The notes under the pieces: model-generated
Told to the model about the DNA's origin: nothing
The model's input: the letters and a program-made list of their open reading frames with translations, nothing else
Databases searched by the model: none
Translations under genes and position numbers: made by a program
From: Acidobacteriota bacterium
GTDB lineage: Bacteria; Acidobacteriota; Thermoanaerobaculia; UBA5066
DNA length: 64,000 nucleotides
Assembly (NCBI GenBank): GCA_029781975.1
Contig: JAKOVQ010000053.1
Span: forward strand, 248,001 to 312,000
Reading direction: 5' to 3'
In this document: piece by piece, positions 4,263 to 5,985 of the stretch
Numbering within the stretch: position 1 is the stretch's first letter
Layout: every line of letters starts with the position of its first letter

Positions 4263-5011
4263 CCAGCGAGTCGTCGCTCTCGACGCACCGTGGGGCTCGA
4301 CGCTCGCCGACGCCGGAACGTCGAGCCGTCGAGCCGTTCAGGCCCTCGCGGTCCATGGACCTCCGGCAGCGTCGCGCGGCCACTCCTTCTCGCGCCAGCT
4401 GCTGCGTACGGCCCGAGAAACCGTGCGAGCACCGGGGGGCGGGCGACGGACGCCCCCGCGCGGTCCGCTGCGCGCGGGCCACCCGCTTGCGCCCGGAGGC
4501 GCGCCATCCGCGGGGCGCGGCAAGACTCGCTTCGCTCAGACAGTTGCCGCGCTGGTCCCGCTCCCGGCGCGCCCCCGGGCGAGCGGGTCCCGGCCCGTGC
4601 TCGGACGGACGCGCGCAGGGGCGTCCGCCGCCCGCCCGTCGCGCCCCCCGGGCGCGACAGAGTTCAGCGCAGGGTGGCGTGGCTCCCTTGCCAGGCCGCA
4701 CGCACCGACGCTGAAGAACGCCATCGGGCGCCCGCCGGCACCGGAACGTGGGCCGCGCCGGCTGCGAGGGGAGGCCGGCCGACCGAGATCCGCTCGGCCT
4801 TCGAGGCGGCGGAGAGGTAGGATTCAGAAGATAGAGGCATGAAAATCAACTGCAGCAGCCAACCTCTCCGTTGTCAGGCTCTGACAGGGTGTTCCGACAC
4901 ATATGTTTCGGCGTCAAATCAATGTTCGAGTCTGCCGTATGGTGCTGCGGAGGGCGCCACGCCCGTATCCCGCAACTACCAGGTCTGCCTCGCGGAAGCA
5001 CAGGTGACGGC
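4263..5011. other. Long non-coding stretch with structured element and low-GC patch
   Basis: I see no convincing protein gene in these 749 bases. Open frames here are arginine-rich or shift along palindromes. The stretch contains copy A of the structured element (4419-4658, minus strand). About 4840-4960 has clearly lower GC than the rest of the window (roughly half in the line at 4861) and leads into the secreted-protein gene at 5012. A 60-codon Cys-rich frame (4839-5021) and a longer start at 4871 for the downstream frame exist but lack support. 4263-4418 and 4659-4838 show nothing further that I can name. Confidence 0.6.
4419..4658 (-). ncRNA. Structured RNA-like element, copy A (unrecognised family)
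   Basis: On the minus strand this folds as follows. A 5' hairpin (4638-4658) has arms gtcgcgccc/gggcgcgac. A long helix pairs 4611-4637 with 4437-4462 over about 26 base pairs. An internal loop of conserved sequence follows, with conserved helices GGGCC:GGCCC and CCCGCU:AGCGGG. A 16-bp variable helix then leads to a terminal hairpin (GCGCGGCAA:UUGCCGCGC) closed over the conserved loop at 4524-4543. The unpaired tail GCUCGCACGGUU (4419-4430) is identical in copy B. Against copy B (5741-5985), loops and tail are conserved while the helices differ on both sides and stay paired. G-U pairs occur in this orientation and would be A-C mismatches on the other strand, which fixes the strand. It lies beyond the AlaX gene, pointing toward it. 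Confidence 0.75.
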
Positions 5012-5713
5012 ATGCAGCTGACCAGCTCTGGAGCCCTGCAGCGGCGCTCAGGGCTTGCCCTGGCGCTCGGGCTGCTCTTCCTCCTCGTCTCGACGTCCAC
5101 GCTCTCCGCGACGGAGCCGGCGAAGCCCGCCGGGCGGACGCTGGCCTACGACCTGATGCTGTCCAACGGCGCCGAGGTGCAGGTCCGGGCCGTGGTCACG
5201 GCCTCCACCCAGGAGGTGGCGTTTCAGGGAATCGTTCGCCTCCTCCAGACGAACCAGACGTGCTCCTTCGACGAGAAGGAGGATTCCACGTGGAAACGAA
5301 TCGCTCTCGATGTTGCCTGCGGGAAGAGCCGGCTGGCCGTTCGCTACGAGATGCCCTCTGTTTCCGCCGATTCCGCTGGATCGGCCCAGGTCCCTCGGAT
5401 GGTCAAGCTCCTCGTCGGAGGTCGCCTTTACGCGTGGACGGTCGTCGGGGAGGTCCCGCAGGACACGAATGCCGCTGCCCGAGGGACCGGGGCGGTGAGG
5501 GCGCTCCCTCGAGAGTTCCAGAGCGCGCTGGGAGACGTCGCGAAAGCGCTCGTGAGCGAGGAGTTCTCCACCGAAGCCGCGGCCCTGCCGGCGGGGTTCC
5601 ATCTCCTGCGTGCCCTCCTGGACAGCGACGACCTGAAGGCGGAGGTGGTCCGGATTCGGCCCCTCACCGCGGACGAGGCCGACGGCCTCGCCCGGCTCGC
5701 GGCCGGTCGATAG
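5012..5713 (+). CDS. Hypothetical secreted protein
   Basis: This encodes 233 residues that I do not recognise. The start is placed at the ATG at 5012, which gives a typical Sec signal (residues about 12-34, GLALALGLLFLLVSTSTLSA). The frame is open back to 4871, but that extension is Cys/Arg-rich and would bury the signal. The mature part begins with a segment resembling a stand-alone beta domain (AYDLMLSNGAEVQVRAVV) and has two cysteines about 30 residues apart (QTCSFDE and DVACGK) that could form a disulfide. The C-terminal third looks helical. The gene sits in a lower-GC patch between two inverted copies of the structured element, with copy B starting 27 bases after its stop. This suggests an acquired or rearranged segment. 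Confidence 0.6.
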   Translation: MQLTSSGALQRRSGLALALGLLFLLVSTSTLSATEPAKPAGRTLAYDLMLSNGAEVQVRAVVTASTQEVAFQGIVRLLQTNQTCSFDEKEDSTWKRIALDVACGKSRLAVRYEMPSVSADSAGSAQVPRMVKLLVGGRLYAWTVVGEVPQDTNAAARGTGAVRALPREFQSALGDVAKALVSEEFSTEAAALPAGFHLLRALLDSDDLKAEVVRIRPLTADEADGLARLAAGR

Positions 5714-5740
5714 GAGACCCGCGGCTCTCGGAGGGTCGCT

Positions 5741-5985
5741 CTTCGCGCCCGGAGGGCGCGAAGGCGGGAGGCGAAGGCCCTCGCGCGAGTCCGTCCGAGC
5801 ACGGGCCGGGACCCGCTCGCCCGCCGGCGCGGCCCCGCAGGATCAGGCGGGCCTGCTGTCTGACGAGCGGAGCGAGGAGTTCAGGCCCGCCCCGGAGGGG
5901 TCGCGCCGCCGGGCGAAAGCGGGTGGCCCGCGCGCAGCGGACCGCGTGAGGGCCTTCGCCTCCCGCCCTCCACGCTCGCACGGTT
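5741..5985 (+). ncRNA. Structured RNA-like element, copy B (unrecognised family)
   Basis: The fold matches copy A on the plus strand. A 5' hairpin (5741-5763) has arms cttcgcgccc/gggcgcgaag. The main helix pairs 5764-5787 with 5943-5966 over 24 base pairs including one G-U. The conserved internal-loop and short-helix block follows, then a variable helix with 18 of 19 positions paired. The helix GGCGGGCCUG:CAGGCCCGCC closes the loop at 5856-5880, which shares CUGUCUGA and GCGRAGCGAG with copy A. The tail GCUCGCACGGUU is at 5974-5985. It starts 27 bases after the gene at 5012-5713 and converges on the gene ending at 6034, so a terminator-like role is possible. The rest of 5714-6033 holds nothing else I can name. 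Confidence 0.75.

Follow-up and report, generated by a model that had tools for sequence, protein, structure and literature searches.

The 64,000-nt stretch of Acidobacteriota DNA analyzed here (the window) carries two inverted copies, A and B, of a hairpin element of about 240 nt, which probably form the two ends, left and right, of a small, non-autonomous mobile unit that works as folded single strands. This unit would be ~1.56 kb long in the window and, at three further loci, ~0.8 kb. Each end, once single-stranded, would fold into a short 5′ hairpin followed by a ~100-bp hairpin with internal loops and an apical cap closed by a GNA triloop; an enzyme supplied in trans would read the folded strand via its loops and cap, so that the stems would be free to change as long as pairing is kept. 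The likeliest enzyme would be a Y1/HUH single-strand transposase of the RAYT/TIRYT kind, which leaves no target duplication. The unit would spread mostly between genes and could carry an interior, in the window an orphan gene for a putative secreted protein. The initial annotation had described two inverted copies on opposite strands, and the family alignment, from which we set their ends, bears out both places and strands (Table 1); across the family, the element ends are TCGCGCCC and GCTCGCACGG.

Table 1. Coordinates of the hairpin elements, their conserved parts, and associated features; positions are those of the window unless a locus is named
Feature	Position	Strand	Remarks
Copy A, complete 240-nt hairpin element	4421..4658	minus	5′ end at 4658; tail GCTCGCACGG ends at 4421
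Copy B, complete hairpin element	5741..5983	plus	Begins with the 5′ hairpin and closes with the tail GCTCGCACGG
Proposed mobile unit, divergent pair A(−)/B(+)	4421..5983		Outer termini CCGTGCGAG...CTCGCACGG, 1.08-kb interior
Copy B, conserved internal-loop region, 5′ side	5789..5819	plus	GTCCGTCCGAGCACGGGCCGGGACCCGCTCG
Copy B, conserved internal-loop region, 3′ side	5918..5946	plus	AGCGGGTGGCCCGCGCGCAGCGGACCGCG; nearly identical in all own-genome copies
Copy B, apical cap	5857..5881	plus	TGTCTGACGAGCGGAGCGAGGAGTT; GNA triloop is GGA
Copy A, apical cap	4524..4542	minus	TGTCTGAGCGAAGCGAGTC; GNA triloop is GAA
Orphan 233-aa ORF, signal-peptide-like start	5012..5713	plus	Between copies A and B; possible cargo
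Cap TGTYTGAGCGNAGCGAGTT, examples in viral contigs	L214:4349-4367, L223:5488-5506, L235:1468-1486		

The element is a repeat family and not a two-copy oddity. With copies A and B as queries, the genome that contains the window (own genome; 5.37 Mb in 54 contigs) yielded 17 complete copies, as well as one with a different outer stem (contig C6, locus L022), an old divergent pair at C25:124.3k, and, at contig ends, partial copies. Using a model derived from 15 sequences, we identified copies in 14 of the 149 genomes of the class, in eight genera; the element is richest in genera g1, g2, and g5, all of the same family, and also in a single genome from family f12. Named relatives containing the element are Acidobacteriota, some of them labeled Thermoanaerobaculia. 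The scan of named genome contigs used a first family pattern that is one base too long and misses the window's own copies. This same over-long pattern returned no match in viral contigs, and on that basis a phage origin of the element lineage is weakly rejected. Named phage and plasmid records gave no match.

Copies are dispersed and mostly intergenic, with sharp ends set in unrelated flanks. Copy A is 97–98% identical to partners at C2:30.4k and C22:109.4k, and copy B is 98–99% identical to partners at C2:29.9k and C27:26.1k, while A and B share ~79% identity with each other. In g1, the presence of near-identical copies suggests that spread has been recent. Some copies have no partner, and a single element may also be able to move or survive alone. 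In genus g5, three species have the pair, or what is left of it, at one intergenic site; most of the left hairpin is gone from one of these, and a 45-bp hairpin repeat interrupts an arm in two, affecting a different element in each. The pair at this shared site is old and decaying, with no movement seen there. A second hairpin repeat of ~45 bp (GGGGGGC...GCCCCCC; L100:4640-4720, L210:1560-1625) is common in g5 and is inserted in arms of the large element. In the own genome, the same 49-base flank follows the element at G000:C14:268511-268559 and at G000:C2:30650-30698 (L013, L009), one of these lying at the very end of its contig; this common flank is probably an assembly join through the repeat.

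Each copy consists of a short 5′ hairpin, an imperfect hairpin of ~100 bp with several internal loops, and the 3′ tail. Relative to dinucleotide shuffles, the fold of copy B scores z = −9.5 as RNA and −8.1 as DNA, and that of copy A z = −8.7 as RNA; none of 200 shuffles folds as well as either copy. The alignment reproduces the exact loop and tail blocks that the initial annotation had seen in common between A and B, and the main helix, though different in the two copies, pairs in each, the A/B differences being compensated. The pair closing the 5′ hairpin is G-C in A and U-A in B, also as first described, and C-G in other copies. Among the unpaired regions, GTCCGTCCGAGCACGGGCCGGGACCCGCTCG is invariant in the complete own-genome copies except for one base in one copy, and its core is retained in other genera.

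In the 15-sequence alignment, 96.5% of pairing cells are paired, and 17 of the 52 pairs have changed on both sides (shuffled mean, 7.3). Double-change cells number 44 against 11.2 in shuffles, and the covariation score is 0.213 against 0.078; none of 500 shuffles reaches the observed value for any of five measures. Sliding the partner by 1–3 bases lowers pairing to 33–50% and destroys the covariation signal. The nine-pair stem beneath the cap pairs in 97.4% of cells across 52 sequences drawn from the class, each of its pairs having changed on both sides in 11 to 28 of the 52. As the alignment rows are related, these counts do not represent independent events. The further copies in related genomes and the strong covariation in a larger alignment, on which the initial annotation had made its structured element depend, are thus both present, and the proposed structure is not refuted. 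The structure is under selection.

One strand is preferred for folding. On the strands initially proposed for the two copies, the own-genome alignment has 62 G-U cells, spread over 19 columns, and 7 A-C cells, distributed over 7, in agreement with the G-U pairs first noted there, though this count used a structure predicted on that same strand, which could favor G-U. We therefore recounted with a strand-neutral palindrome alignment in which every mismatch was scored alike. The raw total was 104 G-U against 87 A-C, the high A-C figure arising because one internal-loop A-C is present in most copies. Once this invariant mismatch is removed, the own genome has 46 G-U against 7 A-C (22 against 5 distinct contexts; two-sided binomial, ~0.0015), and the relatives have 58 against 31 (40 against 21 distinct contexts), where the A-C count still contains a second conserved loop position. 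Cruciform DNA, or the correction of a simple palindrome, would yield equal numbers of G-U and A-C mismatches; the excess therefore asks for a single strand, and one strand, of the polarity given in Table 1, folds. Covariation beyond shuffles and strand preference are both expected of a structured RNA, and single-stranded DNA would produce both too; the two observations fit an RNA and a single-stranded DNA hairpin alike. Together they make this a clear case in which the single-strand folding of a bacterial repeat is visible through covariation and strand bias.

The arrangement of the copies is equally regular. Close pairs in family f1 (within 3 kb) are all minus-then-plus, with 5′ ends inward and tails outward (17 of 17; a few weak partners in this list are profile hits and not full model hits). 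Three inverted pairs in genome G105 are likewise divergent; this genome also contains some tandem copies, with spacing near 247 nt (L150:5946-6336, L152:5984-6300). The pairs on C2, C22, and C27 are copies of one composite of ~790 bp: the C2 and C22 sequences align across 790 bp, a stretch that begins at CCGTGCGAG and finishes with CTCGCACGG, beyond which they no longer match. Copies A and B are 97.9% and 98.8% identical to their C2 partners, and their order and termini are those of the C2 composite. The window pair has none of the composite's interior and encloses a different one, of 1.08 kb. The copied unit is thus exactly bounded, with a different interior at one site.

The simplest reading of the window pair and the composites is one kind of mobile unit whose interior varies; alternatively, two independent insertions may have occurred next to the orphan gene. 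Under the former reading, the interior of the window pair would move with its ends. The orphan ORF has no Pfam or NCBIfam match and no homolog among 20 related genomes. A pair in another genome brackets a SnoaL-like gene (L098:676-1053, G011:C226), a second possible cargo. The interiors and neighbors read contain ordinary genes, the SnoaL-like gene, and the orphan; no transposase was found among them and no autonomous version of the unit, and an element with an internal transposase gene is rejected on these grounds. A search for an empty counterpart of the window site found that gene order around an alanyl-tRNA-editing-like gene is not kept in other genera.

The main rival to a mobile unit is a functional RNA, which the initial annotation had preferred on the strength of conserved loops and covarying stems. 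The copies would in that case be transcribed by read-through or outward from the pair interior, giving a structured RNA (e.g., one that binds protein or stabilizes RNA) that has spread by duplication. Covarying stems, conserved unpaired loops, and the one-strand G-U excess all agree with this, as does the cap Y-G pair, which across 52 sequences is always either U-G or C-G; the strand-specific, covarying fold on which the proposal was built is real. The genomic context weakens the remainder of it and makes the mobile-repeat reading the stronger. Copies are dispersed and sharp-ended, the sequence preceding the 5′ end is not conserved among single copies, a sigma-70 scan (which leaves other promoter types aside) shows no promoter- or terminator-like site nearby, orientation relative to neighboring genes is not consistent, and in f1 the divergent pairs are copied as a block. 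We accordingly regard a functional RNA as unlikely. Known RNA families are rejected: Rfam release 15 gave no match at gathering score in the window or related loci, and a search at E up to 10 returned only chance matches, the best with E above 1. The family is thus as unrecognized as first thought, and no match to a known repeat family was found.

Two further explanations were weighed. The copies could be remnants of a conventional, MITE-like DNA transposon with long terminal inverted repeats and a lost DDE transposase, folding being a by-product; inverted ends, fixed termini, and a non-coding or exchangeable interior are what such remnants would have. We find this improbable, since the flanks of four composites contain no target duplication (AAGT/TCAG, CGAA/TGGT, GCCA/ACTC, GAAA/TTCG), in contrast to a classical MITE, and since strand-biased wobble and compensatory changes within the ends would be unexpected if only double-stranded ends mattered. 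Still further from the evidence, and in our view very improbable, are intergenic palindromes acting in transcription as insulators or terminators and kept by the host for a local function. Several single copies do lie between convergent genes, and the folds are very stable, but the stem is not followed by a T-run, other copies lie between divergent or co-directional genes, and stability alone does not account for conserved loops or a copied composite.

For the mobile unit, the likeliest mover is a Y1 (HUH) transposase acting in trans, because its 25-bp repeat lies beside or inside many copies of the element; the assignment is based on one genome, and we hold the enzyme's identity with less confidence than the mobile unit itself. 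The own genome has one Y1_Tnp gene (C37:21.8k; L097:4767-5776, G000:C37), flanked by the 25-bp repeat GGGGTCAGGTCTGTGATCCGTGATC and its inverse, and thus forming a TIRtron. Inverted repeats of the form GGGGWSAS flank TIRYT genes, which include a group characteristic of Acidobacteria (PMC3733652); the GGGGTCAGGTCTGTGATCCGTGATC repeats at C37 fit this pattern, whereas the 240-nt element does not. Within two mismatches, the repeat occurs at 30 places in the own genome. Thirteen of these lie inside a pair or no more than ~110 nt from an element; among the 13, 7 are situated 8–23 nt past the element's 3′ end in the same orientation, though the neighborhoods around elements make up well under 1% of the genome and the repeats are few. 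In this TIRYT-like arrangement, dispersed GGGGTCAG repeat copies of the own genome adjoin or sit inside hairpin elements; other genera show no such tie between the GGGGTCAG repeat and the element. No hairpin element surrounds the own Y1 gene, and none lies within ~1.5 kb of 30 Y1 genes in 20 genomes; the element as the Y1 gene's own repeat is rejected accordingly. The G-U excess and the repeat association offer circumstantial support for strand-specific transposition of the Y1 (IS200/IS605) type.

Among described systems, REPINs and BIMEs with their RAYTs are the closest in behavior. These are non-autonomous, intergenic doublets of inverted palindromes, whose single copies are seen as remnants; a Y1 transposase acting in trans is believed to move them in single-stranded form (PMC3116915, PMC2817692). 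The hairpin elements resemble them in being intergenic inverted doublets that are non-autonomous and accompanied by lone copies, and the inverted doublet appears here too as the replicative unit, given the uniformly divergent f1 pairs and a composite copied as a block. REPs themselves are palindromes of 20–40 bp, one end of which bears a GTAG or CGTC tag (PMC3733652). The present element is ~240 nt long, has conserved internal loops and no GTAG or CGTC tag, and flanks no Y1 gene read; it works like a REPIN but falls outside the REPs on size, tag, and Y1 adjacency. If a Y1 enzyme does move the unit in trans, REPIN-like biology would extend to structured, gene-carrying ends of 240 nt.

More distant comparisons are with sites and repeats of other kinds. 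In integron attC sites, a folded single strand is recognized by its shape, stem sequence is free, and the cargo consists of small genes. Such sites are shorter and directly oriented, whereas the hairpin elements form inverted pairs with long conserved loops. ERIC and the bcr1 repeat of B. cereus are larger intergenic imperfect palindromes, dispersed and plausibly transcribed. Likened by description to these two, which are named in PMC3116915 and PMC3733652, the hairpin family is set apart by its divergent pairing with a shared composite and by its cap motif.

This cap is a constant of the family. An apical end of the form GA-stem-GNA-stem-GAG is found in 60 of 65 copies, in which N may be any base (A 44, C 9, G 6, T 1) and the mini-stem may be GC/GC, GCC/GGC, GGCC/GGCC, GCGC/GCGC, CC/GG, or AC/GT. 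GNA loops on short GC stems form extraordinarily stable DNA mini-hairpins (PMC4686876), and this exceptional stability in DNA is one reason why we lean toward single-stranded DNA as the probable active form. The cap is also found well beyond the family. The 19-mer TGTYTGAGCGNAGCGAGTT has 87 matches in viral contigs (L214-L293), against 1 for the reversed control; many come from close relatives, and they represent 38 distinct flank pairs. Stems of at least 7 pairs are formed by 17 of these 38, compared with 2.7% for mismatched flanks. The remaining viral contexts include protein-coding sequence. The same cap tops unrelated stems in other bacteria and prophages. The viral cap loci have no Rfam match, and a search for the cap sequence within one literature library returned only unrelated papers (primers and the like).

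Where related loci can be compared, the cap and core are kept and the arms vary. Related prophages (L309-L363), which we take to be P2-like from their gene order, carry a capped hairpin unit between two late genes in about half of cases; in L321, L322, and L325, exactly the capped inner hairpin is missing and one short TTA repeat copy is left. Sites of these prophages without the element also lack its arms, and insertion into pre-existing hairpin loops is rejected on this account as a general source of copy-specific arms. In genome G460, from another Acidobacteriota class, five of seven copies (L301, L303, L305, L306, L307) have a common core, and each has outer arms of its own that are still complementary; arms of this kind would require an unusual insertion or arm-forming step. 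The capped hairpins may all be homologous, or the cap may be convergent. We tentatively suggest, with rather less than even confidence, that TGTYTGAGCGNAGCGAGTT, whose GNA triloop closes a short stem resting on G-A pairs, serves as the recognition head for a class of long single-strand hairpins, widespread but undescribed, in several bacterial phyla and in prophages. Conservation in this class would be confined to the cap and a few loops, with the stems free to vary; the window pair would then be a lineage that moves cargo genes between two heads. If the cap is such a common head, one 19-base pattern would find many unannotated hairpin repeats and prophage insertions, and the mover would become testable. 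In genus g3 (L104-L109), shorter hairpins of the form CGCGCGTG-cap-CACGCGCG carry the same cap and lack the long internal loops that the element conserves.
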